Positions 32,419 to 63,000 of a stretch of DNA of 64,000 bases are shown here, in pieces (the stretch's first letter is position 1; every line of letters begins with the position of its first letter). The translations under genes were made by a program, and so were the position numbers. Source of the DNA: Xiphophorus maculatus (Eukaryota; Chordata; Actinopteri; Cyprinodontiformes; Poeciliidae); NCBI RefSeq assembly GCF_002775205.1, contig NC_036451.1:22244351-22308350 (forward strand), read 5' to 3'. Below the pieces are notes generated by a model. The model was not told where the DNA came from. It saw nothing but the letters and a program-made list of their open reading frames with translations, and did no database searches.

Positions 32419-35400
32419 CTACACACACAAAAACAGACCAAAGTAGAGGTGTGCCATACAGTATACCGATAACGATACTGATACCGATACTTTCTATTTA
32501 AGATTGATATATTATCAAATGTCTGACATTTAGGTGTTTTTGTGTTTTGGTTTTGTTCTCTGTCCCAGGCTTGAACAAAAAAAATTCAAAGTTTCCATCC
32601 ATTTCCTAACACCCTTGTCCCTAATGGGGTCAGGAGGGCTGCTGGTCTCCAGTTAATGTTCCGGGCAAGAGGCGGGGTCACCCTGGACAGGTCGCCAGTC
32701 TGTCGCAGGGCAACACAGAGACAGACAGGACACACAACCATGCACACACACACACACTCACACCTAGGGAGAATTTGGAGAGACCAACTAACCTGACAGA
32801 TAGAGCCAGAGAACCCGGAGACGCATGCACAGGGAGAACATGAAAAACTCCATGCAGAAAGACCCCGGGCCGGGAATCGAAACCCAGGACCTTCTTGCTG
32901 CAAGGCAGCAGTGCTACCAACTACAAAATACTTTAATAACATATTAACATATATTTTTTTCTAAATAAACTGCAGAAAATATAATTTTTGAAGGTAGAGC
33001 TAAGAAACTACGGTCCAAAAATAAAATCTGAAGATGTAATCAGAAACTAAATGATCAATTTTACGGACTTGGTGTCGATATATTGATATTTTTTTGATCG
33101 ATCCGCCCACCTCCAGACCAAAGTATAAAACATTATAACTCGGTTGTTTGTCATAGCGGCTGTTTGCGTCGAGGCCCACCGGCAGCGTGAGCGGCAGCCT
33201 GTGACGTTCCGCTCTGTGAGGTGAAGCAGGTGCTGCAGTCGCTGCTGGCGCTAACGATGTCATCACCGGGCGCAAACAGATCGACGCAGCGGCCGAAGTT
33301 GGTACCCCCTGCTCCTTGCGACATGAGCTGGTCCTCAGAGTTCACGGCCCCTACGGTGATGACCTGCACAGACGGAATGAGGGTCAGAGGTCGCGATCCG
33401 GCCTGTGTCTGTTCCCGTAAGTGTTCCCCTTCGACCTCGGGTTCTGAAGCGGGCGAATAGAGGCAAGCGTCTTCTCTGTAGTTCCCTGCAGCGGCGACGA
33501 CGGCGGCTCCGCGGGCCACCGTCTCTCTGCATGCTGCGTTCAGTGACCGGCTGAAGCCGCCGATGAAGGGCAGCAAGACAACCGCCGCGTCCACGGGGCG
33601 CGCCAGTAAGGTCGCTCGGATAAACTCCAGCCCTGAACAGGAAGCGAAAAGACCAGCAAAGGTAAGTGCAGGTTCACTTCTGTAACTTTTTCATGTCACA
33701 ACCACAAAATGCAATGTGCGTTTTATTAGGATTTTCACGTTTGATTATTTGTGGAATATTTCGCTGCAGTTACAGCAGGTTGGTCTTAACTAGGTCTGCA
33801 TGTTTACAGACTGAAACTTTTACCCATTCTGTTTTGGGAAAACAGCTCCAGCTCGGTCAGATAGGATGGAGAACATTTATGTCTGGACTTGGACTGGACC
33901 ATTCTAATACATGAATTAGAATGTATGTATTAATACTAATGCATTCTTATTAGTATTAAGAATGTATTAGAAAGTTTAGATCAAAGTTTAGATTTGATCT
34001 AAACATTTTTAGATCAAATCTAATTGTGAGTCTCAAGTCTTTTGTCACCTTTAGCGGGTTTCCTTTCTTGTATTTAGCTCCATCCATCATCCAATCAACT
34101 CCGACCAACTTCTCGTCAGACCGGACAGAAATCACATGTGGCGTACCCCAAGGTTCAATATTAGGACCCCACCTTTTTTATATCTAAATACTCTAGCTAG
34201 CTCAGATTTGAACAAGTAATAAGAAACCATAACTATAATGCAGATGGTACACGTCTCTACATTATAATGTGACCAGGTGACTCCGAACCCATTCAAATAC
34301 TAAACAGAACAAATCAAAAAGAAGAGAAAAAATAAATGCATGTTTTATCATGGGAATGTTGTGCTAGAGGTTTTGTGCAGTTAGTCTTTCCTTTGAACAT
34401 GGTGTGTTACCAAAAACAGATCACTTCTGGTCTCATCTTAGCAGCGCTCTTTCTTCCACACGCCTTTACTCCAATATTTTCTAATAAACCTATCCGACTG
34501 TATTTAGGAGGTTGAAGTAAAGGGGCTTAATACAAAAAGTATGCCACGCTTTTCAGATTTTTGAAAGTTGCAGCAAACTTTACAAAACATCCACCATTTT
34601 GCATCCATCTAGAGCGCATTGAGGTTGTCTGGTTGTAACTCAAAAATAACTTTGAAAAAAGAAAAAGAAAAAAAGAAGTTATCTTTTTAGATGCGATCTT
34701 GTCTGGTTTTAACAGTGAAGCCACCCGACCTGCCAGAGCTCCGGAGACGGTTCCTTTCCCCTGACAGTTCAGCACACGGACCAGGTTAACGCCGGCACCC
34801 CGAGCAACACCCGAATCCGATCCCGTCACGACACCGGCCAAGTGCGTGCCGTGACCGTCACACTGACTGGCCTGCGAGAAGCAGGAGAAGAAGAAGAAGG
34901 AGAAGAAGCTGAGCATGCATGGTAGCAGGGCGCAGGTCAGTGTGAAGGTTTTGTTGCCGAGCTGCTGTTGACAAACCTGCCTATGAACTCTGACCCCGTC
35001 CTCCTCAGGAACATTATTAAAGTCTGTGATGAGAACTCGTCCTTCAACCTCTCTGTGGGAGCTCTGCACGCTGCCATCCATCAGGTACACCTCGGCCATC
35101 TCTCCATCATCTGTAGAGGACGACACGCGAAGAAGGCAGGTTGCGTTACCTCAGCTGTGTATGCAGACAGACGAAGACAGAGCTGGAGGACAGACGGACG
35201 ATTTAGCTCTACAGTGGACATAAATTAGTCTAGTAAGATGCTTGGTTTTTGTGATTTTTTAAATTAATTTATCTTTTTTTGTGGTATTTAAGCTGAAAAC
35301 AAGGATAAATGAAAACTAAACTGAAATAATGTGGTTAAAAGTAAACACACACACACCATGTTAAATAAGAATCGCATCCAACCGTCCACCATTAAAGTGC

Positions 35401-39691: not shown

Positions 39692-39765
39692 TCTGCACAC
39701 CTCGTTTTCTTCTTTCTTTTCTTTCTTTCTTTATTTTTTTAATATATATAAATTTTAAATCCTCG

Positions 39766-39990: not shown

Positions 39991-40000
39991 CTCACGCCAC
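39991..40000 (-). promoter_or_regulatory. Sterol regulatory element of PCSK9 (SREBP site)
   Basis: The minus strand reads GTGGCGTGAG, 300 bp upstream of the PCSK9 ATG. The characterised human PCSK9 SRE is GTGGCGTGAT at a similar distance. A GC box (GGCGGGG, 39965-39971) lies 20 bp downstream, and a CCAAT box lies 120 bp upstream (minus strand, 40121-40125). SREBP2 with Sp1 or NF-Y is the expected driver. Function is inferred from sequence identity and position. Confidence 0.65.
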
Positions 40001-40120
40001 CTCTTTTGTATCGAATGATTGTCCTCCGTTAAAAGCAGCTCTTTCTGTGGAGGGGTCATGTTTCACGCTCCTCTGTGATTGCTGCGTGTCAATCAAAGGG
40101 AGAAGAACTTCCTCCCAGGG

Positions 40121-40125
40121 ATTGG
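40121..40125 (-). promoter_or_regulatory. CCAAT box upstream of PCSK9
   Basis: CCAAT on the minus strand (within AACCAATCCC), 120 bp upstream of the SRE-like site. NF-Y often cooperates with SREBP. Confidence 0.4.
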
Positions 40126-43100
40126 TTGATGCTGCTTTAAGGCGAACAGCGTGTTGCTGCAAAAGTTTTCTCATGTCGTTGATTTGTATTATTGTCTATT
40201 GAGGAAAAGGTAATAGACTTATTCAATTTGATTTTATGTGCTAGGTGAACAAAGAGCACTGCACATGTTTCAAGTGGAAGGAAAGTCATACGTGTTACGA
40301 CATATTTTGCAAAGAAAAATCTTAAAAGTGTGACGTGCCTTTGTTTGAACCCCTGCTTTACTCTGATGTCCCTAAATAAAGCTGCAGCATTGGCATCACG
40401 ACCACCGACTAGGAGGTTAGAATATCCAGCAATATCCCCAAGATTTGGACACTGACCTCTAGCGGTCCAAAAGCTGCAAATCTGCTAAGAATCCCACCCA
40501 GCAAATCCCAGCACAAAGCCCTGAACTTGCTGGAGGGAGTAGATGTGTCGCTTTTAACCTGAATGCACATTGGAGTCTCTTTTGGGATTGTTTTATTTTT
40601 AATATACATGAGACTTTTATTCCTCTTTTTAAAGTCAGAATGGAAAAAACTAGAAACATACCAACAGAATCTGCTTTCGCGACGTTGCTTCAGTTATTGT
40701 TGGACTCTCATGTGATTTCAAGAATTTTATGTCGAATGCATTCATTTCTCTGCTCTGGCGTTTCCACTACGTTGATTTATTTTACATTTTAAGCATGGCA
40801 TTTCCATTTCACATATTTTGACCGGTAAGCCCTACTTGAGCTCATAGACAAGTTGCTTTTGCTCGAAACCTTCAGCTGGGCACCGAGGTTTGTGTTTACT
40901 TCCTTATGCTCTGATTAGCAGATTTCTTTCGATTTCTTTAAAAGCAAATATTAAATAGATCGAAAGCTCTTATGAAAGTTGTTGGTGTCAGGGGAAAAAA
41001 TGGAGTTATACATAGGTTGGATTTCATGCACAGCTGTCAAATAATTTACATCTAGAAAAGGGGAAACTCCCCACCTTGACCACTTTGAATTTAATATTAA
41101 AATATTGCCCACTTTTGTATTACAATTCAGGGCTGAAAGAATTGCGGTTCTTTTTTTTTTTTTTTCAAAATCCAGATTTGTGTGTTTAACAATGATGGAC
41201 ATGGAGAACAAATATGCTTTTCAAACATGTGTATTATTATTATTTGTATTTTACCACTGGAGAATTGTAGGAACTTGTTTTATTTGAAGCATCAATGAAT
41301 CAAAAAAAAAAAAAAAAAAAAAAAAAAAACAGTTTTGGGAAATTTATTTAAAAAAAAAACACACACACACAGTTCTTCAGGTGGAAAAATAATAATAACA
41401 CAAATCCTTCTTTTTCACTGTTAACAGCGCCATCTGCTGGGGCTACCGTGTAAAAACACGTTCGTTAAATCATTTCCCATGACAACAGAACCGACCCACG
41501 TAGGATAATTTCCTTTCAATAGCAGCACAAGACGTGTTCTGTTAGATATATTACATATTTGCGTTGCTGGTTCTGTCATTCGGCTTCAGTCCTGAGTTGC
41601 TTTTGCTTTTGACCCAGTGAAGTTTGCTCGGTCCGCTCTCCTTCAGACCAGATGCAGCGTGGGACAGCTGCGGCTCTCATTCATCTGCACACCGTCCGAC
41701 CTTTGGCCGCAGGAACCCGGCCGACACGCAGCGTGCCTGAAAACAAAAGCGAATAGTGGCGGTGGGAGGAGGAGGGACAGGAATAGAAGCTTCATCACAC
41801 TGTCCCCGTTTATTTTATTTTATTTTATTTTTAACTCTGAAGAGGAGATTTGCTGAGCCGGCATGTCTTTATCGAGCAGCCCAGTAATTACAGACCCACT
41901 CAGGCAGCAGGAGGCGCGTGAGAGCCTCGTTTCTGGCTCGAGCGCTTTAATCAAGAGATCGTTAACGGCCCTCTGCTCTCGCGCCACCAGCAAATTCAAT
42001 CCTCCTCGGTCACAAATGTCGTGGCGCTATCTCTCCTGTTCCCCTCATTCCACTCTTGAGAACCGCTTTCTAGCAAAAAAAAAAAATAGAAGACGAACGT
42101 CTGCGTAGATATGATCGGTTATGAAATCTTTTATCTTTTTTCTTTGTAAATTTAGCTACTTTTCAACAAGGCCTGAGCAGAAAGGAGAGCTAACGACATT
42201 CTCCTTATTTGCCCAAAGATGGTTGCTGAGGCTATGCTAAACCATGTTTAATTGCGCAGTGTACTTTTTTTTTCCATGTTAAATGTAAGGCATTAAGTTT
42301 GCGTAATATTTCGGGCTCGTTTGAAGAAAACTGGATAAAAAATATTTCATCTATTCTAAAAAATAAAAGCAGGATCTAGCAGATATTTGAGCACCAAGGT
42401 GTACTTTAGCGTATAAGTCAAAGAGTATTTACCGTGAAAATAAGGAAAGCAGAAAACGTGGGGAAAAAATATAACTTTGTGTTGTAGCTAACATTTTAGT
42501 AACCAGAATTTTATTGTAAATGTCATGGTTTTGTCCATGATGTGGGGCCACACAAAATCAGTTCAGGGGCTGCAAATGGCCCCGGGGCCTTTCTTTGAAC
42601 ACCCTGGCTCTAGCTTGTAAATCAGAGTGCTGCTTTCAGGATGCATTATGTTGCTTATTTGTATTTTGGAACCACGTCTCCCTGAAAACCTAACCATAAC
42701 CTATAGGTCGTAAAGAGATGACGTCACATCGGGTCGTTTCTATTTTCCTCGCAGCAGAACCTGGAGAAACTGAAACACACACCCGGAAGTAGTCCAGTCA
42801 GATTTATTTATCAACCCTGATCAACTCGATTAAGCTGTCCCACGGTTCTCTTTGTTTTTCCTTACGTCTAATTTTCTCACAAAGTTTTCCTTCAGCATCA
42901 CTGAAACTTTGTTGGGTTTCCCCCCCCCCCCCCCTTCCTTCGTGTCTACTTTAGTTCAGGAACGATTCAAAGTGAGGAGCCGTCCGACAGTTTGCGCCAG
43001 ACGTGACGGCCTCTAACTCCTTCCCACAGAACGACCTTCAGGCTGGTCCAGGCAGCTGTTGTGCTGAGACTCCGTCTGTCAACAGAGCTGGGAACGAGAC

Positions 43101-43476
43101 GGTTCCGTCTGGTCTCAGTTAACCAGTCAGAGTCCGACTCGCTTCAATGAGACCCAATACGACTCGGGTCAAAGCGAGGAGTTTGATTTTCTGATTGGGT
43201 TGCATTCTGGGATGGGAAGTCGATCGACCCGAAAGGTTTTTTTCCACCCCGGGTTTCGACCGTCCTTCCTTTATCCTCTACACGTGTCCTTAAATTAAGA
43301 CGAGTCAAAGAAATCAAATAGAAAGAGATGATGAAGCCTCTGATCAACTAACAATACCGTTTCTCTGGAATCTAACACAAAACACAAGGGAATTTGTTAG
43401 GTTTTTTTTCCTTTTTTGTAACAATACGTCTACGTAATACAGTTTATACTGTTGGTAAACTTATTTCCCCTTAAGT

Positions 43477-43685
43477 CAGGGGTGTCAAACTCCAGTCCTC
43501 AAGGGCCGCTGTCCTGCAACTTTTAGATGTGCCTCTGCTGCACCACACCTGAATAGAATAATTAGGTCATTAGGAAGACTCTGGAGAACTGATCTAATTA
43601 AGCCATTTCATTCCAGTGTTTTGTACCTGTGGCACATCTAAAAACTGCAGGACTGCGGCCCTTGAGAACCGGAGTTTGACATCTG
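43477..43685. mobile_element. Short hAT-type MITE
   Basis: Left end CAGGGGTGTCAAACTCCAGT, right end CCGGAGTTTGACATCTG, with inner inverted matches (CTCAAGGGCC against GGCCCTTGAG). This terminal type (CAGGGGTGTCAAACTC) is common for hAT MITEs. The flanking 8-mers are similar but not identical, so it is older than the 27.35-kb copy. Confidence 0.75.
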
Positions 43686-43871
43686 CGCCTAAAGTGATGC
43701 CACATATGTGAGGTAAATGTTGTGAGTTGACCATGCGTTGGCCTGTCAAGGTGACAAATTTTGCTGGACGATAAATTGTTCCAGAGGTTATTGTGGTAAA
43801 CGATAATATTGTTGTTTGAGACCTTTTTTTTTTCTCCGAAGAGTTTTTGCGGCACTAGTGGCTAGTATTTT

Positions 43872-44012
43872 TTAGGCGACAGTAGGCAAACAGGAAAGAG
43901 GGCGAGGAGAGGGGGGAGAACATGCGGCAAAGGTCACCGGGACCCGAACCTGAGGACTAAGGCGTCCAAACGTGGGGCGTGCTAACCCCCTGCGCCACCA
44001 CAGCACGCCCCT
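43872..44012 (-). repeat. tRNA-derived SINE
   Basis: The minus strand starts 'aggggcgtgctgtggtggcgcagggggttagcacg', with an A-box-like TGGCGCAGGGGGTTAGC, then a B-box-like GGTTCGGGTCC about 35 nt later, then a CT-rich tail segment ('ttctcccccctctcctcgccctctttcctgt'). This is the layout of a tRNA-headed fish SINE. Confidence 0.7.
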
Positions 44013-44858
44013 TGAGACCATTTTTAAGTAAAATTATGGTAATGGCAAAATAATAATGCAAGAGCACATTGTAAAAGATCAGCAAATTTTAAATCTTAAT
44101 GGACATTTAACACTAGACCTGGAAGACATTTTAAATATCCAAAATAAATAAACAAAACAATAAATAAAATGAATTCTGAAGTCTTTGTAAACAAAATTGT
44201 CCTTCAATTGACGGCTAGTTGAGACCAAAACACCAAACTGAAGACTTTCATCATCCAGTCTTTGGTAGAAAGAGAGAGAGAGAAAAAGAGATAAACCATA
44301 AGTCATGCCAGTAGAGATATTTGAGTTTGTTTTAATTTATCATGTGATTAATTGATTTATTGATTATTGTGACCTCCAGCCCAATGAAACCTTGTGGAAT
44401 CAGTTTGGGCGCACCCTTTGCACCAGACTGACCACCACAAGCACACTTTGCTGACCTGCAGCAAACACTGGTTAAGCAGTAGGATGTCATCCCACATCAG
44501 TGTGTGACCAAGGAGGATGAATACATTTCTTAAAATGCCAAAATGAAAGGTTTAGTTTGCTTTCATTTGCGTTTAGTTTTGCATCTCAACCCTAATTTTT
44601 CAGAATGCGTAAACTGGTGCGCCTACTAATTGGAGATTCTTGGTTTTATTAGCTACTGGCTATAAATTGCTGCTCAATTTGTAATTTAAGTGTCAAAATT
44701 GTAATTCTGAAAACAAATTACATTTTGTAACATTTAATGATTCTCCTTAAAGGATATAATTACACGGCTCCCACATTGAGGAATATATCTCATGTTCAAA
44801 TATGTGAGACTGAAGGTTTTTATGTCATCAGGCTGATGCTTAAATATTATTTTGCAGC

Positions 44859-46323
44859 CTAACGGAGTGGAGACCCGTCCTCCGCTCTCCCCTGGAACTC
44901 TGCTGCTGTCACCGCGTTCAGACCGGCTGATGGGCTCTCAGCAGACGGAGCACAGGGAATAGGTAAGACCCAGATAACTGGCACCATGCTGTGTGTGTGT
45001 GAGTGTGTGAGTGTGTTAAGACAGCACCTCTCATCTCTGGCAGAGCCCATCAGATCCTCCAGGCTTTCCTTCTGAATCACGGGCGTCACGACGATCTGAC
45101 GAACACACGCCTTTGTTTACAAAACCTCACTCTAGTACATCCTGCATGTCAAAAACTCAGAGTTTTCTTCAGGCAGAGGTGGTGCGAATACCCCAAAAAA
45201 GTAGCAGCGCTACTTCAATGTGTTTTTTTTTTTTTTTTTACTCTAGTGAAAGTAAACATATCCATTCAAGAAATTACTCAAGTAGGAGTAAAAAAACAAA
45301 ACAAAAGAAAAACAACCAAAAGCTACTCAAGTATTGACCAGAATATCAGTCCTTTAATATTAAAAAATGACATCATCAGATGGACCAAAACATAAAGTCA
45401 AGTATGTGGAAACATTGATAATTAGATCTATTTTTAAGTAGCATAATTACAAAAAAGGGAACTTTTTTTTTCCGAATCTTAGTCAAACTTGTGGGTAACG
45501 CTTTACAATAAGCCTCCTCTATAGATTGCTAATAAATAGTTTATACATATGTTATTAAATAATCTATAAGCCTTTTCTAAATCACTAATAACTGTTTATT
45601 GGGCATTAAATAAAGACGAGTAGGAGACTATGTGCTAAAATATTACATTTACAATTGCTGATTGTACTTACAAGTTAGTCTGAAATGTTTAGTATAAAAA
45701 CTATAGATCAAACGCAGGTGAACAGATTTGGCTCACTATTTGGCAAGAATTTTGTCTCCTTCTTACCCTTAACTGATGTGTAACAAAAGTCATTAATGAT
45801 TTGTAAAGTGTTTAGAGATGAATCAATAACATATCAGGGAGCATTAATGTAAAGTGGGACCTATTTATGGATCTTTAACAGAAACTGCAGGTGTGTGTTT
45901 GTGTCTGGTGGGTTTTTGGTTAGAACAAGCTCACTCTTCACTCAGTGAAGTTACTTATTGTGGGCAGAGAATCCAAGAATTTCATGTAAGAGCAGCAATG
46001 TTTCATAATAAAATTACTCAAGTAAAAGTAAAAAGCACAGCGTAGTAAAAATACTCCTAGAAGTCCCCCCCCCCCCCCCCCAAAAAAAAAAGTTACTAAA
46101 GCAAAAGTAATTGAGTAAATGTAACTAAGTACAACCCGACTCTGACCTTGGGATAGCACTGGCAGAGGCTCCACACTGTCCCAGCACAGACCATGGTGAC
46201 CCCGACGACGCACATCGTCACGTAGACGTGCGGGCGCTCCTGCATCATGAGGAACAGGCCTACGGCAACCACAGAGAGGCCGGCCACTATGAGTCCGTAC
46301 CGATACGGCTTCCCCTCCGCCAT
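44859..46323 (-). CDS. bsnd: BSND, barttin (exon 1 certain, C-terminal part provisional)
   Basis: Barttin is the two-pass beta subunit of ClC-K chloride channels in kidney and inner-ear epithelia. Exon 1 (46323-46147, 59 codons) encodes [16 protein letters not shown], transmembrane segments at about 9-27 and 34-54, then WSLCQCYPK. It aligns without gaps to human residues 1-59. Arg8, Gly10 and Ile12 (human disease positions) and the palmitoylated Cys54/Cys56 are kept; Gly47 is Ala. A probable exon 2 begins at 45095 after GTTCGTCAG, with [19 protein letters not shown] in the right phase (0), and the frame stays open to TAG at 44859-44861. Another short intron may lie inside. The product would be about 110-138 aa, far shorter than human (320), and no PPxY motif was found. 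The neighbours PCSK9 and TMEM61-like genes support the identity. Confidence 0.82.
45174..46144. mobile_element. hAT-like element in BSND intron 1, with another repeat nested
   Basis: Left end 'cagaggtggtgcgaatac', right end 'gtacaacccgactctg', imperfect inverted complements. Sub-terminal text ('actcaagtaggagtaaaa', 'actcaagtaaaagtaaaaa', 'gagtaaatgtaactaagtac') is the signature of a very common fish repeat. Within it, about 45490-45865 starts 'ggtaacgctttacaataa' and ends 'ttaatgtaaagtgggacc', the ends of another MITE. A 16-C/9-A run is at 46066-46090. The right end falls 2 nt inside the intron from the BSND exon 1 donor. Confidence 0.65.
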
Positions 46324-49300
46324 CGCTGTGAACCTCTGCTGCAGCCCTCTGCTGCGCTGACTTGAAGCATGACGGGGGGTGGAGGGGGTAAGAAAGATTG
46401 AGTGGGCTCTTTGTGTGACAGAGCTTGAAGGTGAAGGTGGAGAAACTGCAGTGGTGGTTCCACTCCGCTGCTTATTACAGCCTGCAGACACTCTGCTCAG
46501 GTCAGGTATAAAATTGCAGGTGTGCGTCTGTACCTGAAAGGTCACCTTGCTTCAGGCTGCTGTACTAAATAAAATCTCAGCTTGTGGGGGCACTGCTCAG
46601 TCGGCTGTCGGTGTTTGCTTGGTTTACGGCCATCCTCCTGTTTCCTCCTCTTCAGGGATTCCCTTCCTCTGAATAAACGGCTTTATAGCAGTCAATACCA
46701 GCCTTAGAAAGCCGCTCAGCCGTTTCTTAGCTCTAGTTTATGGTGATGTGACAACAAAACGAACAACAGGCTGCCTGCAAACTGTGAGCAATCGGCAACA
46801 ATGCGCTGTTAGCATTCTGCTGTCATTGCTTTCCAGTGCAGGAGTCACATGAATTCCAACAGGTTAGGAGGATTCCCCAGTTTGGTGTCTAGAAGAGGCC
46901 AGCATCAATCTGCTGACTTGGGATCCAACAAGATGGAATGTACTAGCAAGACATAGTGAAACTATTAGCATTTGGTGTTTTATTACAACCAGTCGGTGTT
47001 TAGCTAATGTTTAGATTCCCTTTAGTGTGTCGTGTGTCTAATTTTTGCACGTCTGCTCTACTGACATCCAGACTGGCAGACGTTTAGTGTCCTGGGCCAC
47101 TGAAAACACTTTGCCATCTCCCCATTTCATTCAGTCAGTAATCTCCTATGAATGATGAATCACATGATGACTAGCATGAGGTTAACAGTGGCGCCCCCAG
47201 AGGGGGGAATGGAGGTTAACAGGGGACTGTGGCCCGCTTCTTGGAAAGTGTTGGAGTCATGTTCCGGTCACAGAAAGACATACAGGGTTATCTTCTCCAA
47301 GCAAGAAATAAATGTAAAAAACAATAAATAAAAGATTTATAAAATTTAAAATATATATTTATATATTTTCTGGCTATTTGTACGCATGGCAGGTTTACAT
47401 TTAAAAAATTAAAAATAGGCACACACGCAGACAAACAGCTCTGGGAAAAAATTGAAGAGTCCACTTCATTGAACCCCATTGAAAACCTCCTGGTTACTCC
47501 ACCAAATATTGATTTCTGAACTCTTCCTGAGCTAAAACATTAGTATTGTTGTTTCTAAATGAGTATCAACTTGTTTTCTTTGCATTATCTGAGGTCTGAA
47601 AGCACGGCATCTTTTTTTTTTTTGTTATTCTGACCATTTCTCGTTTTCTGCAAATAAATCCTAAACTTGGAATTTCAGAGACATGTTGTCAGTAGTTCAC
47701 AGAATAAGAGAACAATGTCCATTTCACTCAAACATAAACCTATAAAAAGTAAATTCAGAGAAACCGATAATTTTAAGTGGTCCCTTGTATTCATATGAAT
47801 GTTTTGTATTTTCGCGATCTTCAGGTCTGAGTTTGGAGGGCCTCTTTGCCGCCACCCTGATCTTTGGCTCCCTCTGCAGATTCTCTATTAGTTTCCAGTG
47901 AACAACTCTGGTTGGTTCACTTCACAATGTTAATATCAATTCCAGTCAGCAGAAACACGTTGGTGAAATGAAAAGATTACAGCAAACCTAAATCTGTCAG
48001 GGATACGATGTTAAAATCACTTCAGGCTTAAGATGATCAGCGGCTTTGCGCTCAATTATTATGTAAAATGTGCAGCGTCCCAGAAAAGCTCAAAACGTGC
48101 TAATTGGTGCCTGGAGGGGGGAAACATGCACATCCAGTCATTTCTCTAGCATGGTTTGATTTGTGGGTTTGTTTGTTTTCTTTTTTCTTTGCTTACTGAT
48201 CTCTAAATTTGGACACATTTTTAGTTATTAACAATAACTCAATATCTCCCAAGATTGTAGTCCTATAAACTAATAAATGCAAAATTTCTACCTGTAATTA
48301 CTTTATTCCTTAATAGTGCAACAATAACTCCACGCTAAAGAGAATTTTGAAACGGCAACATAAACGTAATTTAACGTGTTCCTCCCGTGAAGCAGTTGGC
48401 AAACATGTAGCTGTGGATTTACTGAGGCTAGTTCCCTCTATAGCCTGTACAACACCAACTAATATACACAAATATTGAAAAAATAATAATGCCAGAAATC
48501 CTGGAAAGTATTACAAAGACATCCTTTATTTTCTTATGTAGAAACTGCCTTATCTGATGACAAAGCATATTTTCATCCCATTCTCAGTGCATGATGCCTT
48601 ATACATGTGATACATTCATCTTTCAGCCTAAAAGAGGTTGTTTAAAAACATTTTTAATACAAGTGGATTATTTTTTTAAATCTCTATATAAAAATAACTA
48701 AATTTAGCTCTTTTTTGTGAATCCTACATTAGCTGGGAGGCTGCACACAGGAGAATCTGTCCAGGCCTTCGGGTTAATGGGTGAGCTAAGAATGGAGTCC
48801 TCTGATGTAGTGGCAAGATGCAACCCACTTCCTGTACACTTCCCCTTTAAAATGGGCCAGGGCTTTTATTTCATCCATCCATCCATTTTCTTACACTTTT
48901 GTCCTTAGTGGGGTCGGGAGGTGCTGGTGCCCATCTCCAGCTAACGTTCCGGGCGAGAGGCGGGGTCACCCTGGACGGGTCGCCAGTCTGTCGCAGGGCA
49001 ACACAGAAACAGACAGGACACACAACCATGCACACACACACACACACACACTCACACCTAGGGAGAATTTAGAGAGACCAATTAACCTGACAGTCATGTT
49101 TTTGGACTGTGGGAGGAAGCCAGAGAACCCGGAGAGAACCCACGCATGCAAAGGGAGAACATGCAAACTCCATGCAGAAAGACCCCGGGCCGGGAATCGA
49201 ACCCAGGACCTTCTTGCTGCAAGGCAACAGTGCTACCAACCTAGGGCAGCCTAGGGCTTTTATTTCCAACACAGAATTAGTTTAAGGTTATTGCACTTTT

Positions 49301-49977
49301 TTATGCTCCCTTCTTACACTGATTTTGTTTGATTTTTTTGCCTGAAATATACAGGAAATACCTTATATCTTAAAATGAGTTTTTCATATATCGCTTTGAA
49401 CCTCTTGATTCTGCTGTTACACCTGACAACAAAGGTAGTTTTTCTATTCTATTCTTCTGGAAAGTATTAATCATCCTTTCTTTTCTTTCCCCCCCCCCCC
49501 CCGTTTCTCAAAAATCCTGGCATTTTATCAAGAGTTTGGACGCTTTTCAGACCAGGCCAGAGTGAAGCAGCCAAGGGGAAGAAAAAAGAAAAAAACAAAT
49601 AAATGGATAGCTGCATAAAATAAACGACATGGCGGCAGATTGAGACAACACTGCATATGGGTTGCAGGCTCTAGTGAATTAAAAACAAGATATGTGCTTT
49701 AACATAGGTATGCTGCAGATATATGAAACTGAAGTTTCTCGTGTTTAAACGTAAAGACAAGGCGACAGATCTCACACCAGCATTTCCTGACAACAGTTGA
49801 ACTTCCATTCCTGTCTCTGTGACGGCCCAACCGTCCACGGGAAGCCTGAGCTAAAAAGTCGAGTCTCGATTGGTCGACTTCAAGGCACGGAGGAGGTTTG
49901 CTGCTGTGAGTTCAGACAAAGCTCTTCGCTTAGAAGAACAGTAGGCACCGGAGGAGTGTAGGAAGTCCAACCCAGTT
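46324..49977. other. BSND upstream region and intergenic DNA
   Basis: No exon was recognised. About 47438-47780 is a decayed DNA-transposon copy (ends 'gctctgggaaaaaattgaagagtccac' and 'gagaaaccgataattttaagtggtcc', imperfect inverted complements). A SINE with clean duplications is at 48873-49252, and a C run is at 49491-49502. The BSND promoter should lie just above 46323, but no clear element was seen. Confidence 0.45.
48873..49252 (-). repeat. tRNA-derived SINE, copy 2, with perfect 14-bp target-site duplication
   Basis: Flanked by identical AGGGCTTTTATTTC at 48859-48872 and 49253-49266. On the minus strand the head has 'ttggtagcactgttgccttgcagcaagaaggtcctg' and the B-box-like GGTTCGATTCCCGG; the 3' end is a (GGAT)n tail. 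Long direct repeats plus a simple tail are the mark of LINE-driven retroposition. About 90% the same by eye as copy 1 at 32590-32925. Confidence 0.85.
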
Positions 49978-52900
49978 TTAAACTTGCTGGCTGCCATCTT
50001 GATTTGCACATGCAGTGTGTTCAGGAAGTTGCCGATCGTCGAGCTCGTAGTCCGGCTGTTCGCCGGGCTCCTGGTTCGCCTCCTGGTTTATGTGCTGGCT
50101 CTTCATCACCGTGTCGTACGACGGCGGCGGCTCCATGGTCCAGGGCGGCGGGGTGGACGGCAGGGACGGTTCGGGCTCCGGCGAAGTGCTGACGGCGTTC
50201 GTCGACATTTCCCGGCGGATTCGGTCCAGCCTCCTGATGGGAACACGCCAGAGACTCGGTGAGGACTTCCTGTTTTAATCTGAAACAGAAACTTCCTGAA
50301 TACTTCCGGAACGCCTAACATGCAAGTACAGTACAAGCGCCCGCTACAAATCTGGTTTCCCTGTTAATGCAGATGGACACTGAATTTTTTTCTGAGTTTT
50401 CATTTCATAGGATTTGAATTGTAAATAAGGCCACCAACAAGTTTTGGGACGCACCTTTTCAATAAAATATTGATTTTAGAAAATACTGTAGAAAGCTGCA
50501 TGTCCTGTTCTTATTCAGGAAAATAAACAAGAAAATAGGAAGCAATTTACTAAAAAAAAAAAAAAAAAAAAGTGGGAAAGTCAAAAGTCTGAGATCCTTT
50601 TTGTGCTTTAAATCTACAATAATGTTATATAGATTCTTGATTTTTGACCAAAGCAAAACAGGATATGTTGCTTGTTTTATTGAAATATTGTGATTGTGAT
50701 TTTTGTGGCTCGTGAGTGCTTTCAGTTTGATGATGTCTGGCACGCAGTGGGAATAGTTGGGACACCGCCGACTTATGCAATTAAAGACAACACAGATCAC
50801 GTACTAAATGAGTCACATGAAATAAAAACAGCTCTAAACGTCTCCCATCTCACAACTGATGGAGGAATCATTTAGTCATTTAGAGCCTCCAAACAATGCC
50901 TCCAAACAATGCCTCCAAACAAAATGTTGTTGAAAATGTAAAAAAAAAAAGAAAAAAGATGAATTTACCAACAACCAAAAAAAAAAAAACCCCACATGGC
51001 TGGAAAAATTTTAGACAGAGCTATTTAGTCTATGTATTTACGGCAAGTGGCTTACGGGTGTTTTGTGTTTGGAAGAAATCAGACGTTTTCCAAACATCTG
51101 CTTACACGGATCCACACTCACCACACCCAGACACCTGATGTCACCAAACTATGTTCTATGAAACGATAGAATCTATATTTTCCAAAGGTCTGATGACATC
51201 ACGATAGGCTGATGTCTGGCCGCTCTCGGTGCTGAGATGGAGGTAGAACGAGAGCTGGAGAGAGAGAGAGAGAGAGCGATGGACTGACTGAGTCGGATCC
51301 ACTGAGATCAAAGTCCAGCTTTGCTTCTGTTTGCCGTTTTGTTTTATTTTTGGAAGGCGACATTCAGAACCGCAGGTCGTGACCCTTATTAAGCGGCGAC
51401 CCAACAAGACTCCAACAGTGAGGCGTCATCCGTTTTCTGAGCGCTCTGGACCTGTTGGACCTCAAAGATCCTCCTGTGGGCAGGTGAGCCAAATGCAGAC
51501 AAAATCCTGGAGTAGTGAACGTACATTTAAAGCTAAATCCTTCATCTGGTCATCAGATTTCATTTAGTTTTCAAAAAGTGTAAGTTTTGCTTATTTGCGT
51601 AATTTATCATTGAAATGTTTTAATTAATGGGATTAGTTAGAACATTTTTGGATTCAATTTGTGACCGGATCCAATACAGTCATTCAATTTTCAATATGAG
51701 TGCCAACATTGTGATCTGGAGCACACAGACGCTGTCTCTGCCCATTTCCTGTCTGGTGGCCGTCAATAAAGGCCAGTAGTGCTAAAAAAAAAATTATATA
51801 TACATATACATGCTGTATATATGTATATATAATTCTGACAAAATTTTTTATTCTTCAGATTACGTTTTGGTATATTAGACTGATATAAATATGTTTTTTT
51901 AATACTCGCTGTTGCTTTGGCCTTATCGCTCTACGCTACGACTTCACTTCAGCAGGTTTTAGCAGCCTGCAGTAAAACTACACTGTGATGTTTATTCTGC
52001 ACTAAGATAAAGACAATAGAGCGGTTTATTATATATATATATAATATTAATATTATATATAATATTAATTCTAAACAAGGTGCCATCAAAGAAAATGCAA
52101 ATTAAACCAATCAGCTAGCCTACACTTTTTGGAGTTTTAACATGAATAGTTTGGTCATGCTGTCAGATATGTGAAGGTATTCGTAGAAAAGGGTTTTAGT
52201 AGTAGAAAAATTGTGTGTGTGACTATCAGGTGAAGCCGTCCAATAAAGAATACAAGGTTTCCAGTTGTGTTCATTTTAGCCAGAATGCTACAGTGTTGCT
52301 CCAGTGTCGCTACAGAGTTGCTAGCACGGGATGTCAGCTCCAGTGGACTCTACAGACTCCTGAACAGTTCATCATCATCAAGTTTATTCTGACATTATTT
52401 ATTTATTATTATTATTATTTAGGACGCAGACGATATGACCATCTCCAAGAACTACCACTCCATGTCCCAGAAAGGTAGCCTGTCTGTTGTTTCCCACCAT
52501 CAGTTTTCCTAATCTTTGCCATACTACGTGTCTTAGCCAATAAGCTGGGACTTTGCAATATTTTCCTGATTTTACTCAAACAAGTAAAAGGAATATTGAA
52601 ACGCAGCCCAGTTTGTTCGTCTGCGGAGTCTATTGTTCTCTGTGCCGGTGGTTTCCTGTCTGTCGCTCAGCTCGTTATTTCAGAGAAGAGCGAGACGTCG
52701 CAGCTGCTGCCGTCCGGTCGGCTTTGGTCTCAAGGCAACTTTTCCAGTGAACTTCCAAAAAGTAAAATCGTCTCTGGGCGAATTCTATCCATTTTGTTCA
52801 TCCCTACATGTTGCATTTTGATTCAGAGGACGCAGAGCCTTATCGTGCTGTGCAAACAGTATATGCCAACTTCTTCTGTTTTGCTTTTTGTCATTCTTAC

Positions 52901-55680
52901 ATGTTCCAGACTTATGTTTTTTTTTTTGTTTTTTTTTACATCAGTAAATACAAAATGTGTGTTATTTAAATGTTGATCTTATTTGTTGAGGGGGAACAAA
53001 ACTTAACATTTATTTAAAAGTTACTACCTCTTAAGTACTGCTTCTGCCACACTTGGGAGCAAATCTGCTACCCAACGACGTCAGTCTTTGCGATAACCGG
53101 CAATAAGTCTATTAGGTTGTTTTCATTCAGTTGTAGATCATGCAAGATTTAAACTTTGACTAGGCCACTCAAAATGCATGATTTTTGAGTGGATGTTTTT
53201 GGAGCCTCTTAGAGGATCATCGTTCTGCTGCATGACCCACGTTTGGCTGACGTTGAACTTTTCTACTCGAGAACAGGATTCATGGGTTCATCACTTTGAG
53301 CCAGTGGCTCAGGTCCAGAAGCAGCAGAGAAAGCCTAGATCATCATACTGACCCCACTGTGTTTGACAGTGAGTGATATTCATGAAATGCTGAGATGCTC
53401 ACCCTCCAAAAATGTCAATTTTGTCTCATTTGTCTATGGAATATTTTTCAAAATCCTTGGGGATCATCGGGTTTTTCTTGGCTAATAATAGGCAGCTATT
53501 AGTGTTCTCTTTAGTAATCACTGGCTTCTTCCTGAAATTGCCCCATTTCCTTCCAGACTGTTTTTTTCTTCTCTTTAATTGAGGGATAATGACTCTCACT
53601 GCTGTTTACTGAAATCCTAAAGCAATCGATATGGGTTTGTAACCCTTTCCAGACCGACAGATGTCAAAAACTTTATTTTTTTGTGTTTGTTTGTGCTTTT
53701 TAAATCAAATCTTAAGCTTTTATTGTTTACGCGTACTTTGTACAAGTTCTACTTAAGTGATTTCTTGACTCTACAAGTGGCTCATCACAAAATGCATTTT
53801 TCACAGCCATGTTGGTTTGCGTCGCTTTTTGTTCTTTCAAACAAAACAAAAAAACAAACAGTATTTTGTAGTCAATGGGTGACTTTTGTCTGATACTAAA
53901 ACACACAAGTGATGGGGGGGGGGGGAGCTTCTTATGTTGTTTTTTTTTTAAATCAGCAAGGTTGCCATTACTCCCTTCCCCACCAGTGTAGCGGGTTGTT
54001 TCGTTGACCGGCCAATGAACGCATGCTAACTGTAACCAGGATCATTTTCTATATTAGATTTAGTTTATTTATTTTATTTTCCATTTTGTTAGATTTATTT
54101 TTTAAAGGGTTACTTAAACATTTTTTCCTCTTCCCCTTAATTTATTTAACACCAACCAGGCGAGAACAATAGTGTTCTCGCGTGGCTCTGACGTCATGTG
54201 ACAGCTGCACATCAGCGTCCTAAATTGACAGCACAGTTTATATGGCTGCAAATCGCAGCTTAGGCAGGAAACGCTGCGGGACTCTGATGTGCAGGTAGGC
54301 TTCTGGTCTGTTCCCGACGAGGTTTTCAGATCTCTATTGTCTGTTTTTCAATCGTGTATGTCTGTTAACTTGCAGCCGGGTGATTACTCAACCAAACGTT
54401 GCAAGAATCACGATTAGTCAAGAGGGAACTGGTGAGTGTTTGGTAGGGAGCTAGTATGCTAGCACTAGTCTTCCAGCCTGTTGTGATTGTATATTGATTT
54501 GTTGCGTAACAATATTGGTTGCATAAGTTATATTTACTTATGAAACGTCTCCACATGTAACTGATTAATTAGGTCTGTTTATACAGGCCAGGTGCGTTGC
54601 AGATCCCTCGCGCAAGGAGTGGCTGGAGGGATCTTGACAATAGCAAGGATTGTCTGGTTTCACCGACCAGACTGGCGAGCTAAAATAAGCAGGATACCGA
54701 AACACAAGACTTATCATCTGGGAATATTCTTCCGACCTAATTGGAGGATCAGCTCAAGTCCCCATTGAAGGAAGTGGATTATTTTGGTTTTTTTCCATCA
54801 TCAACAAAGACTGGTGGACGTCCTTGGTATAAGGAACTTTAACTTGTTTTTCCTTTACACTATGGACTAATGTGTATATATATTGTATATATATTGTAAA
54901 TACTAAATACAACTCACCAATTTGCACCATCTTACTGTCTCTGTGCTTTACAAATTGCCATCTCCTCCAGTAGCCGAACCTAGCTAGACTTTAAGAACTG
55001 TTTGGATAAATTTTAATTCGGATTATTTAAAATCTTGTTAATCCTTGAACGCAATGTGGGTTACATAACGCTGTAACTTAAGAGGGAGAACATGCGCCAC
55101 ATAACTGCTGACGATAAGCAAGGTGAGCATGTTGGGGAGCTGGGATACTGTGCTCATGTGAATGAATTCACACAATTCCTTCACATTTTTACAAGTCTGT
55201 CTCTGGGCCCAATTGTCAAAAGTCTTCAAATCAAGAACAGCATGGAGGTTTTTATAAAGTAGGATTTAAAAATAATAATAAGAATGTATTTTTTACTTAT
55301 TTCTGAGCTTTCCTTTTGTTTTATCCCTCAACTCCCCCATGTTGGGAACCACCACTTCACCCCGAAACCCAAAAAATACCCCCGCTGCTGTCACTTTCAA
55401 AGAGTGTTTACCTTTGTATGGCCAGGGCCTGCTGTGGGCTGAAGCGTGTGCCAGTGGGGGGGTGCAGGAGGAAGTGTCCAGGCACTCCCACCTGTAAATT
55501 CTTCTTAGCCATGCAAACTCCTGCCACCATCACGCTCAGACCCCCCATACCCAGAAAAATCCCAAGTACCATCAGTGGGACCGTGGCGTGGTACGCCGTC
55601 CCAGAGCTAAAGATCATGATTCCTCCGGAGGTCATCAGCAGGATGCCCAGACAGAGCAGCGTGCCGTGATGGATCGACAT
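49978..55680 (-). CDS. TMEM61-like two-pass membrane protein, paralogue B
   Basis: Two exons: 55680-55412 and 50233-49978, joined in phase 2 to 525 nt, 174 aa. Exon 1 encodes MSIHHGTLLCLGILLMTSGG, with transmembrane segments at about 7-27 and 33-57. Exon 2 is proline-rich, with PPPWTMEPPPSYDTVMK (PPPSYD at 125-130, a WW-domain-binding PPxY motif), then an acidic, glutamine-rich tail. The upstream in-frame ATG at 55977 was not used because the paralogue at 61344 starts at the equivalent MPSLHHG. The place between BSND and DHCR24 is that of TMEM61 in human, and the human protein also has two hydrophobic segments and a WPPPSYE motif. The 5.2-kb intron is rich in repeats. Function is unknown; by kinship with barttin it could be an accessory membrane protein, but that is inference. 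Confidence 0.75.
51240..52750 (+). other. Possible plus-strand transcript inside the paralogue B intron
   Basis: Three segments have good splice signals: one ending 51483 (GGGCAG|GTGAGC), one at 52423-52474 (TTTAG|GACGCA…AAAG|GTAGCC) and one from 52671 (CGCTCAG|CTCG). With the ATG at 52435 the last two join to a 39-codon frame ending TGA at 52748-52750 (MTISKNYHSMSQK + ARYFREERDV…). I recognise no family. It may be an unrecognised small gene, a noncoding antisense RNA or chance. Confidence 0.2.
53041..53680 (-). mobile_element. Degenerate Tc1-like transposon remnant
   Basis: Text such as 'aaactttgactaggccactcaaaatgc' and 'tccttggggatcatcgggtttttcttggc', and at the end 'taaccctttccagaccgacagatgtc', is the complement of recognisable Tc1-like transposase stretches (SQSPDLNP region back to the N-terminal helix region), full of indels. 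Inactive; it lies in the paralogue B intron. Confidence 0.45.
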
Positions 55681-56358
55681 CTCAGGGGCTCCTGCCCTCC
55701 GCGGCTTGGTTTCTTCCTGTTCCCGCAGAAGAGAGGAGACGGATAAAGATCCGAGATTGTGCTTTGTGTGGGTGGGTGTGTGTGGGTGCGTGCGTGTGCG
55801 TGCGTGTGTTGGGTGGGAGTGGGAGTTAGACAGAGGCATAACAGGGGAGGCAACAACAAGAACCAGCAAACAGAAAGCAGATGGAATGTGAGCAACATGT
55901 AAATAATAACCTGCAGGGAAACCGCGCTGGGAAAGCTTGACCATTACTCCTTCACAAGTGATCAACTCTGACTCCAAATCCCTGAAGAAGAAGAGGAAGA
56001 AGAAAAATCCGTGGAGAGCCGATTTATCCAGGCCAGTCCGAATTTCCAGCGAACCCCGCCGCGCCTCTCCCTCTCCCTTTCTCTCTCTCTCATACCCCGG
56101 CGGCTCTACCGCCTCTTCCCCCGCTGAACGCTCATGTCGCCCGCTTGGTGTTTCTCCAGAGCCAGCAGCGTCGAAAAAAACCCTCTTCGATCAGAGTTGA
56201 TGTTGTCGCGGAGTGGGTTTCATCTGGTCACAGCAGCAGCAGAGGAGGAAGAAGAAGAAGAAGAAGAAGCGGGCAGCTGCGGTGGAGGAAGTGCTTTTAT
56301 TTTTAATGAGGAAGGCTTTTTTTTTTTTTCACTGACGAGGAATTGAGGGCAGGCCGTC

Positions 56359-56389
<31 letters not shown>

Positions 56390-59300
56390 TCTGAACATTG
56401 TCACTTGGCCGCTGTTTGGACAGGCTGTTTGCTGCACGGAGAGTTATAGCCGCAGTTAAAGATGAGCAGTTCCAGCTGGAGATGGAGCCGATCGGCCAGC
56501 CCGACCTGAAGCAGGCCGCAAATCAAGCGCTATATCTCTTTATTTGGGTTCTCATCCCTCCGCCTTAATAAACTTGTTGCCTGAGCAGAGGCGGTCGCAC
56601 CAATAGGGTCCGCCCACCCCGGGCCCCACCAAGGCTTTTTTTTTTTTTTTTTTTTGATGAAACGGTTAACTGGTCGTAGTTGTAAACTTTTCTAAACTTG
56701 TAAATAAAAATAAAAGCCATGAAAACTATCTGTGTATTACATCTAAAAAATAAATAAATAAATAAATAAAAAAACATCAGGGCTGCCTCTTCCATCCATG
56801 TGTTTTATTTAAGAAAAATTAATACACTCACATGGTCTGACATATATGTTCACTTCCTCAATAGTAATAATAATCAGACACATTAGACATGCACACGCAG
56901 CAATTTTGTCTCTACTTTTGTGAATCCTGCTGGCTGCATTTATTGTGCTTGTTCAGTCAGAGATCAGAGGAGGGCAGTGCAGCTTCTTTCTTCACAATGA
57001 ATAGTGCAACGTAGGGTGATGGCAGTATTATGCACTCAGTGTCAGTCATCCAGAAAACATCCTACAGTTTTGGGGTTTTTTTGCCTGCTTCGACAAACCT
57101 TTTTTTTTTTTTTTTTTTCACAATTGTAACTCCGTCTGAATCGTTTGTCTTATGACCTAGGATAATGGTTTCCAGTTGATGTTTTTAGCATTTGTGCAGA
57201 AACGAAGCACACATTCATATAAACAAGCAAACGATAAACATGACACGTACAAGTTAAAGTGGATACATGTGGAAGCCGTTCAAGATGTAGTTGAATGCCC
57301 CCAAGACAACGGAGAAACGAGTTCAGTGCAGCTGGAAGTCAATTCCCACGTCGCAACGTTGGAGATAAAAGCCTCTGAAAGAAGGTCGCACCTGGAAAAC
57401 TGATTCAAATTCAACCACTCTGGTGTCATTCTTTAAAATGGAAACAAAAAAAACATGCGACCGCAATTGTGCAACAGCAAATATTACCGGTTGCAATATT
57501 TAAAAGCAGAGGATGCTACGCCAAAGAAGGGCAGTGGTCTGTTGAGCACATGGAAGCACATATGGTCAGATGAGTCAGTGTTCCCAGGCTTCCAGCACAA
57601 TGAGGAGGAGAATAAGCTTAGCACATAAATGGAAAAAAAAAACGAGGCAGGCATTTGTTCAAGATTTTTCTTTTTTTCACACACAAAATAAAAAGAAACG
57701 TGCAACTTTGCAGGTTAAAAAATAATTTAAAAAAATACAATTAGTCAGCTGGGAAATCCCAGAAAGCAAGTGTGCACAAGTATTTGTTGAATTAAACCAG
57801 GTTTTTGTACCTTCTGCTTGCCTCTGCTGCTTTAAGGCAACTGATGGAGGTCAACATCATTTCAGCTGCTGATGTTTTCCCCATCAAGCCCAAAGTGATT
57901 GTCAAAGCTCGGCACGTAAAGGTTTGCAACAACTTCAAGGATGGTATTTACCTAGAAAACAACCGTTGGTCACACTTGTTTCTCTGAACTCCTGTGAATG
58001 TTGGTATTTTGTGACGAGGTCTCCATCACTGCCAACTCTTTTCAGTCAAAGTGTGACCAACGACCTTGTTGATTTGCTGTTGAAAAGCTGCAAATCAGAT
58101 AAAAAACAACAATCTACTGTCACATGCGTCAAACCCTCTGCAACTGAGCCAGATGCTAAATTCTTTGCATCTTGAAATTGTTTCAATTTGATTTAAAGAG
58201 AGATTTAAAAAAAAAAGGCAAGTTTCTTTGATTGGCATTAATCAATATCTTTGGTTTTCTTTACATTCATTATTAAACATTTGATCTATGTGCTTCTGGA
58301 AGTCCTCAAACTGCATAGTTACTGATTTAAAGTGTAAGCGATAAGTGTGGTCAGTTTCAGCTTGGCTGTATATCCCCCTTTTACGCAAAAAATATATATA
58401 GCCAAATCCACATACGAATGTTTTATGAGATGAAGATTAAAGATTTGGAATGGGTAAGCCAAAACCTAGAAGTGAACTTGACAGGAAGTGAGTTGGGTCG
58501 CCTCAAGGCGGCCGTGGACAATCTGAGAGACTCTGAAAATGTTAGCAGGATGAGAAGGTAGAGTGGGAAAATATTGGCAAGTCAAAATGTTGGACGCCGA
58601 CAGACTTATGCAAAAGACTAAATGCTGAAACTGAGTCAAAACAAGCTTCAAATAATTACTTTAAAAGGCTTGGTTACACTTATGCAGCCAGAATATTGCA
58701 TCTTTTATCGTTTTCCACCCACTTCGAGGAAATCTGTTACTTTTTCAGTTCAATTGTGATGGCTATGTATGACATTGTATCTGGGAAAACACCGGACATT
58801 ACATTATACACTACAAAATCTTGTAGTGCCTTTTGAGATCCATTATTAGACTGGGAGAGGGATCAAATAAAAAGTATTACCTCAAAATGTCCCCTTAAAC
58901 CTAGCTCCAAAAGTGAATCAATCTCCGTTCTTCCCTACCCGTTGTGGTTTTAGAACCATAGATTAAGCTTAAAAAAAACAGTAACATAGCGTCAGTCAGA
59001 AAAGTTAAGGTCTGTAACTTCTTACTTTAATCATTTAAGCTGCATCAAAACTCAGTGGTATGTATGATTGAGGCTTTGCCCCCTTTAAATGATTTAGCCT
59101 CATGCAAATAGAGGTGAACGGTCTTGGTTCATTAAAGCTTCTGGCTTCAGAATTAATATTTGGTGAAAAAGGTTTTTAAAAAAAGAAAGAAATTTGGTAG
59201 GTATGTCACTATTAAATGGGTTACCTTTTGTTACCCAGCCATCATTAAAACTCACCTCATCGCTGTGTTTTGCTAAGCTAGGCTAACATGCTGTAGCTGC

Positions 59301-59475
59301 TTCTCAGTTCGTACTTATTTTGTATTAATATTATCTCCAATACATGTTTTATGATACAAATCATCCTAGAATGATCCCTAAAAAAACAATGTAACACTCA
59401 GTTTGGAATGTAAGAATGATATTTAAGCTAGCTCAGGATTTGTTAGCAAATTGTTGAAATGTTGGCTTACATTGC
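55681..59475. other. Region upstream of paralogue B, no gene recognised
   Basis: The first 700 bp (55681-56400) are GC- and CT-rich with (CA)n and (GAA)n tracts, and probably include the 5' UTR and promoter of paralogue B. From 56600 to 59475 the sequence is AT-rich, with T runs (56634-56655, 57101-57118) and no supportable exon on either strand. Confidence 0.4.
56361..56388. repeat. (CA)n microsatellite
   Basis: About 14 CA units. A (GAA)n tract lies nearby at about 56245-56269. Confidence 0.85.
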
Positions 59476-59481
59476 TTTATT
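59476..59481 (-). terminator. Candidate poly(A) signal of paralogue A
   Basis: AATAAA on the minus strand, about 155 nt after the stop of the TMEM61-like gene at 59634. Confidence 0.4.
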
Positions 59482-59633
59482 TTGCCCAAATTACCTCGAA
59501 CTAGCTTTATCATGTTTGACGTATTTAATGTAGAAAAAAAAAACATGCAGTGAACTAGGGAGAAGTAGGCTTCAGATGAATCACGAAGGTAGGAGCTAGC
59601 ATCAAATTTGTGCCCAGTTTAGAAGAGGACGTG

Positions 59634-61344
59634 TCACACCTCAAAGCTAATCTCTCTCGACTGTCCAAATAAGGGCTCTGTTGCCAGGTGTGTGTCTGAA
59701 TATGCACGCCGCAGGTGCGTAGAGCTACAGGTGGTCTTGATGGCGACCTCATATGGAGGCGGGGGTTCCAGCCACGGTGGAGGGCGAGGTGCTGGACTTA
59801 ACCCGCCACAGTCCATGGGTGGGTAGTCGAAATCTTCACCACGAGTAGCGTTCCTCTGGCTCTCCATCGTCCTACAGCCAGAAAAAGTAGTTTTGAGAAC
59901 AATCGTGTGAAAGCAAACATAAACAGTAAAGGTGCTTTTTTGAGATACACGTCAAACTTGTTGACATTGCCAACAAGACAGGACTTGTACGAGTCTTCTC
60001 CTATAACTTTTCTTAGGTTCTCCTCTCTCCAGTGCACCCCAAAACTGTCCTCTAAGACTTAGGCATTAAAAACAATTGATTTTTCTGTTTGGTGAAATGC
60101 CCCTATTATGGTCCAGTTTTAGTTTTCTGGCAAAACCCACTAGATTTATAAAATGAACATTTCTTGTGTCTCAAAAGAGTGTGTGATGCTATCCACTCCA
60201 ACCAGGTTCCCAGGGTCTTTGGATCACTGATCCTCCAGTGTACTTTCGACAGTGGGAACATGGTACTCTTCCACGTATTCATCCTTTGGTTCCCACCGAA
60301 AATCCGAAGAGTTACCCGACCAAATCAAACCAATCGAGTTAAAAGTCGCAGTTTTAGCTCCAACTGATGTGACATAACCACCCCCTGACTTATGAAGATC
60401 AACATGCATCTGCTTTGCTTAAAACAGCATGTTCACTTATGTGTCCCATTTTAGAGAGTGACTACGAGAAATGCGCCTCTGCATCTGGTCCTATTTATAG
60501 CCCAGGGAAACAGGAAGTCATAGATCACGAATACATAAACCCTTGGATGAGTTGAAGTAGTATAGGTAAGAATGTTTTAATTAGTTATTCACTCTTTCGG
60601 AAGCATCAAATAATGTTTTAAGATACCAAAAACAGCAATATTCAGAGGCAACACAGCCACAGGCTCAACAAGAACACACACACACACACACACACAGATA
60701 GGATGCTTGAAACGATCCAATATTTGCAACATTTCTCAGCACGATGTTTGTGTTTTGTAGAGTGAACGAAGTGGTATTAGGGAGTGAACAGCCAGGCGGC
60801 AAATTTCATTACCTTGGCAAACTGAAATCTGAACCCTTATTGAAAGGGCAGCAACAAACATGCCAAGACGTTTAAACAGCGATGCCTTTTTTTTTTTTTT
60901 TTTTTACTCGTTGGATTCAACCAAAAGGCATAGTAAGTAAGCTAGATAATAAAATCAGTAGTCATAAAACAACAACCCATATTTACAATGACAGCATTTT
61001 TTTTCCCCTTCTTCTTCGTTCACCCACCTGGGCAGAAACACGGACTGGGACTCTGGGAACCGAGTCAGCTGAGGAGAGAAGAGAGCATGGCTGGAGTAGT
61101 TGGAGTAGTCGTTGTAAGGGTAATGGGGACAGTCCGGGTCGAAATCCCGCTGGTTGTAGGTCGCTACGTTTTTGCTGTTCATGGCCCAGAAGAGTCCCAG
61201 GATGAGCATGACCACCCCCAGCACCACGCAGCACAGCGAGAAAGCCTGCAGGCGGCTCTGGTAGGAGGCCAGGAAGGCTGTGGAGCCCCCGGTCACAATG
61301 AGGAAGGCTCCGACGAAGATTGCTCCGTGGTGCAGGGAAGGCAT
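59634..61344 (-). CDS. tmem61: TMEM61-like two-pass membrane protein, paralogue A
   Basis: Two exons: 61344-61028 and 59871-59634, joined in phase 2 to 555 nt, 184 aa (human TMEM61 has 210). Exon 1 encodes MPSLHHGAIFVGAFLIVTGG, transmembrane segments at about 9-28 and 34-54 (CCVVLGVVMLILGLFWAM), then a tyrosine-rich stretch (PHYPYNDYSNYSS). Exon 2 has PPPWLEPPPPYEVAIK (PPPPYE at 142-147), the same block as in paralogue B, and ends REISFEV. The ATG at 61410 is in frame too and would add 22 residues; the inner start is preferred by alignment to paralogue B. The nearest gene is DHCR24, head-to-head, as TMEM61 is in human. The role is not known. The PPxY motif suggests contact with WW-domain proteins such as Nedd4-type ligases (inference). 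Confidence 0.8.
60674..60696. repeat. (CA)n microsatellite in paralogue A intron
   Basis: About 11 CA units inside the intron 59872-61027, which otherwise shows no exon. Confidence 0.85.
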
Positions 61345-62769: not shown

Positions 62770-63000
62770 ATGAGTCCGCTATTGTATTTAGGAGCTCTGC
62801 TGGTTTTCTTCCTGCTCTGGATCAGAGTCAAAGGTCTGGATTACGTGATCGTCCACCAGCGCTGGATATTCGTGTGCTTGTTCTTACTGCCCCTCTCGGT
62901 TATATTCGATGTGTATTATTATGCGAGAGCGTGGCTCATTTTTAAGATGTGCTCTGCACCTAAACTGCACGACCAGCGCGTGCGGGACATCCAGCTACAG
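62770..63000 (+). CDS. dhcr24: DHCR24, 24-dehydrocholesterol reductase, exon 1 (partial gene)
   Basis: DHCR24 (seladin-1) is the FAD-dependent ER-membrane enzyme that reduces the C24 double bond of sterol intermediates in the last part of cholesterol synthesis. Exon 1 gives 77 codons, from [20 protein letters not shown] to RVRDIQLQ, followed by GTGAGT. It aligns without gaps to human residues 1-77 over the N-terminal membrane anchor ([20 protein letters not shown]) and the start of the lumen/cytosol linker. The FAD-binding domain is encoded by later exons beyond 64000. The ATG is preceded by a CCAAT-rich promoter. Confidence 0.96.

Follow-up and report, generated by a model that had tools for sequence, protein, structure and literature searches.

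Two genes between BSND and DHCR24

We analysed a 64,000-nucleotide stretch of the Xiphophorus maculatus genome (assembly GCF_002775205.1, contig NC_036451.1, forward-strand positions 22,244,351 to 22,308,350; hereafter the window), focusing on two minus-strand genes, here called A and B, that lie between the barttin gene BSND and a gene taken as DHCR24. The two form a tandem pair of old origin at an established locus, and of a known but uncharacterised kind. Their parts, in window positions, are as follows:

49978..50233, minus strand: gene A coding exon 2, tail and stop (gene model; genome search)
50113..50151, minus strand: gene A tail block PPPWTMEPPPSYD with its PPxY motif (motif scan; outer coordinates from the gene model)
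55412..55680, minus strand: gene A coding exon 1, starting MSIHHG, two-helix hairpin, ending in phase 2 (gene model and hydropathy; found once in the genome)
59634..59871, minus strand: gene B coding exon 2, tail and stop (gene model; genome search)
59748..59783, minus strand: gene B tail block PPPWLEPPPPYE with its PPxY motif (motif scan; outer coordinates from the gene model)
61028..61344, minus strand: gene B coding exon 1, starting MPSLHHG, two-helix hairpin, ending in phase 2 (gene model and hydropathy; TMEM61 is the best Pfam match, below cut-off)

The frames of both genes stay open across two exons with GT-AG junctions and encode proteins of 174 (A) and 184 (B) residues, the first coding exons measuring 269 and 317 nucleotides and each ending in phase 2. 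These two-exon models reproduce the outer coordinates (49978-55680 and 59634-61344) of the initial annotation, which was made from the sequence alone, and bear out the exon count, phase-2 junction and M..HHG start that it described as common to the two genes. The start codons were picked by mutual likeness; for gene B another in-frame ATG lies 66 bases upstream, at 61410. Hydropathy peaks (at least 1.8 over 19 residues) fall at residues 6-24 and 34-52 in A and at 8-26 and 34-52 in B, a spacing nearly that of the peaks in BSND exon 1 (9-27 and 35-53). A two-row AlphaFold model of gene B places helices at 4-27 and 33-65 with low confidence (mean predicted local distance difference test score of 53), and gene B had no match in the PDB at E up to 10.

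Genome-wide searches covered the source assembly (704,300,149 bases in 101 contigs); protein searches were made exon by exon, and only the best candidates were scored. No further copies were found of gene B at E up to 0.001 or of gene A at E up to 10, two extra places returned for gene A at E 4.4 and 5.2 being taken as chance.

The block PPPW-x(1-2)-E-PPP[PS]Y, which the initial annotation reported in both genes, is present in each, and these are the only such matches in the window: the pattern PPPW.{1,3}PPP.Y occurs exactly twice across its six frames and in none of 100 first-order Markov simulations. The PPxY takes the form PPSY in the tail of A and PPPY in that of B.

Inside the gene A intron, a possible nested gene on the plus strand (about 51250-52760) was spotted by eye. 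A 5' exon running to a CAG|GTGAGC donor (51483) would be followed by a piece at 52423-52474 (DADDMTISKNYHSMSQK) and, from 52684 on, by an open stretch (EKSETSQLLPSGRLWSQGNFSSELPK) bordered by AG and GT. The peptide of this possible gene matched no Pfam family and, at E up to 1, nothing in the PDB; in the genome it matched only itself at E up to 10.

Kinship of the pair and its relation to TMEM61

Alignments were tested by local and global scores against 2000 composition-keeping shuffles. None of the 2000 scored as high as the comparison of A with B, and for the hairpins by themselves 22 did so locally and 9 globally. The phase-2 introns of the two genes cut the same aligned arginine, and at 28 of 42 shared residues the codons differ only at the third base. 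Judged from these sequences, A and B are paralogues, and their duplication looks old. A recent duplication was rejected, as an identity of 25-27% would be too low for one.

The gene order of the window bears on the identity of the pair. It runs from a plus-strand gene with a UCH domain (Pfam) on the USP24-side flank, which by position is USP24, through PCSK9 on the minus strand and three minus-strand genes, to a putative DHCR24 exon on the plus strand. As initially annotated, the three genes lie on one strand between PCSK9 and DHCR24, each with a two-helix hairpin in exon 1. The remaining features are:

33151..33690, minus strand: stretch of the PCSK9 catalytic domain (best PDB matches PCSK9, E 5e-47; Peptidase_S8 Pfam match)
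44859..45116, minus strand: possible BSND tail exon region, tentative (open frame; no Pfam match; no [LP]PxY on the minus strand)
46147..46323, minus strand: BSND exon 1, start to CQCYPK, two transmembrane helices (Pfam Barttin PF15462)
62770..63000, plus strand: putative DHCR24, first coding exon (the exon itself has no Pfam match)

The last of these we take to be DHCR24 from its sequence, its position and a FAD_binding_4 match slightly below cut-off (E 7.4e-6, 26.1 bits vs 26.4) in the next stretch, just outside the window. A passage on the human locus gives, on one side of DHCR24, RP11-67L, TMEM61, BSND, PCSK9 and USP24 (PMC9139953), which is the order of the window read from its right end; genes A and B therefore occupy the place of TMEM61. 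In cattle, BSND and TMEM61 are named as genes of one association window (PMC9511494, PMC9999328). Elsewhere in the stretch, 48871-49068 and 32586-32960 on the minus strand probably belong to a single dispersed repeat: when translated on that strand, they share a 10-residue segment, followed by similar residues, and an 11-residue segment.

By sequence, the TMEM61 likeness is found in gene B. TMEM61 (PF15105, curated cut-off 30.1 bits) is the top Pfam match of its exon 1 (E 0.0079, 16.4 bits), with residues 29-58 aligned to profile positions 51-80, and of its residues 1-71 (E 0.0042, 17.3 bits), both scores lying below the cut-off. At E up to 10, a range in which the HMMER filters drop most matches above 0.1, TMEM61 was listed for none of 30 shuffled versions of B (of 40 made). 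TMEM61 is a protein of two transmembrane helices, the number also predicted for A and B. Human TMEM61 has 210 residues and its family spans 150-211 (PMC5015219), a range that includes the lengths of both fish proteins.

Several results weigh against reading A and B as a TMEM61-like pair. Compared with each other alone in BLASTP, the two proteins match weakly (E 0.012), and their tails have small similarity before the block, a score reached by 68 of 2000 shuffles, and none after it, where 1123 of 2000 reach it. Gene B taken whole gives 12.3 bits and E 0.15 against TMEM61, which then ranks third after Tetraspanin and Xan_ur_permease, and gene A matches no Pfam family, either whole or as exon 1 alone. 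With shuffled sequences, other families come up at E down to 0.0005, and 1 of the 30 matches Xan_ur_permease, as B does, so that the TMEM61 E-value by itself proves little. A genome-wide search with TMEM61 returned three weak places elsewhere and not B.

The profile search that the initial annotation had proposed gives a weak, sub-cut-off TMEM61 match for B, none for A, and Barttin for neither at E up to 10. Both genes lie between BSND and DHCR24 and agree with TMEM61 in length and in their two predicted helices; neither reaches the Pfam cut-off of the family. Since their position fits, but B scores below the cut-off and A has no match, we use TMEM61-like for both on account of position, and for B also on account of sequence, and file neither as a member. 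Among the papers listed for TMEM61 or transmembrane protein 61, no title concerned a fish TMEM61 pair. The human protein is placed in a family without known function and figures among the TMEMs with lowered expression in clear-cell kidney tumours (PMC5015219), and TMEM61 has elsewhere been described as unannotated (PMC9511494).

Barttin and rival readings of the pair

The initial annotation described all three minus-strand genes as an array of the barttin/TMEM61 type. The first is better named as barttin itself: its exon 1 matches Pfam Barttin at E 3e-8 and 34 bits (cut-off 27), ends at a phase-0 donor after CQCYPK, and has itself (33.9 bits) as the sole genome match listed at E up to 10; a PDB search at that same limit found nothing. 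The BSND model is secure for exon 1, and the end at 44859 rests tentatively on candidate tail exons. No [LP]PxY motif was found in the three minus-strand frames of 39731-46323, downstream of barttin exon 1, although control by way of a PY motif is reported for mammalian barttin; the fish barttin tail may have lost the motif or use another form of it, or an intron may split it.

Of the proposed tandem duplication of possible barttin kin, the tandem pair at the TMEM61 place stands; the kinship with barttin is no more than a suggestive lead from sequence comparison. The hairpin of B weakly resembles that of BSND (1 of 2000 shuffles as high locally, 14 globally), and that of A has no similarity to it (1117 and 471). 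The barttin intron comes right after helix 2, in phase 0, whereas those of A and B lie in the tail, in phase 2. PF15462 was listed for neither A nor B at E up to 10, where the filters again drop most matches above 0.1, and Barttin membership of the two was rejected on that ground. These results also bear on a broader possibility, that a single ancestral gene for a two-pass channel accessory protein gave rise to BSND, TMEM61, A and B, and that A, B or both still act as accessory subunits of a chloride channel such as ClC-K. The lack of similarity between A and BSND, the different intron and the missing profile match all stand against such an origin, and we consider it unlikely. A further extension would make the four genes an ancient tandem accessory family in which fish A and B assumed the NEDD4-dependent control that mammals have on the barttin tail, splitting the regulation of epithelial chloride transport among adjoining genes. 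The finding of no [LP]PxY at fish barttin and of one in both neighbours fits this idea, on a BSND model that is incomplete, and we hold it to be highly unlikely.

If instead only B were a genuine orthologue of TMEM61, and A, as an unrelated two-pass PY protein, had come by the same layout through convergence, it would be natural that the TMEM61 match and the barttin resemblance appear only in B and that the similarity of the tails lies mostly in the PY block. Introns that agree in phase and in the aligned residue they split, the common HHG start, the adjoining positions and the likeness of the two hairpins speak for common descent, and make convergence quite unlikely. The least probable of the alternatives is that A or B is a decaying or untranscribed copy, which is at odds with two frames open over properly joined exons, with a GC content at third codon positions of 0.73 (A) and 0.70 (B) vs 0.43 for the window as a whole, and with the synonymous divergence at shared residues.

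Proposed function and comparison with known systems

The reading that we lean towards makes A and B a TMEM61-like pair, old and in tandem, between BSND and DHCR24, whose PPxY tail would recruit NEDD4-type ligases for a partner. Hydropathy predicts small membrane proteins with an N-terminal two-helix hairpin, and the long tail is probably disordered and cytosolic. PPxY is the usual ligand of WW domains, and the tail motif would most likely dock those of NEDD4-family ubiquitin ligases. The hairpin would, by analogy, hold a membrane partner, presumably an epithelial transport protein, whose amount at the surface the docked ligase would set. PPXY is the PY motif that Nedd4-2 recognises in ENaC (PMC9753149). 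Barttin is described as a subunit that has two transmembrane segments and a PY motif on which Nedd4-2 acts, and through which Nedd4-2 is reported to internalise ClC-Ka/barttin (PMC7314819); it is by analogy with this motif and ClC-Ka that A and B are proposed as ligase-recruiting adaptors.

A channel partner is likely available in the fish genome, to judge from a ClC-K-like exon at C1:7372495-7372656 (one picked from 31 matches), with CLC-K (1.7e-12), ClC-Ka (1.8e-12) and ClC-2 (3.8e-10) as best PDB matches, and from the published zebrafish ClC-K/barttin (Perez-Rius 2019, as cited in PMC8098666); nothing here ties A or B to ClC-K.

With its conserved PY block, so old a pair in fish draws attention to the tail motif and the hairpin as the important regions, and both A and B could be deleted in a laboratory fish. 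If the barttin link were true, the channel subunit of Bartter syndrome with deafness would gain a wider family.

Among known systems, the pair is closest in place to TMEM61, with which it shares the position between BSND and DHCR24, a similar length and, for exon 1 of B, the best Pfam score; it differs in that score (16.4 bits vs the cut-off of 30.1, and nothing for A) and in having two genes where the human passage has one. With barttin it shares an adjoining place on the same strand, similar hairpin spacing and, in B, a weakly similar hairpin, whereas A and B lack the profile match, have another intron position and phase, and carry in their tails an [LP]PxY that was not seen in this fish BSND region. 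NDFIP1 and NDFIP2 are short membrane adaptors of the NEDD4 family whose PPxY motifs recruit WW-domain ligases; A and B resemble them as short membrane proteins with PPxY, and differ from them in the number of helices and in the order of motif and helix.
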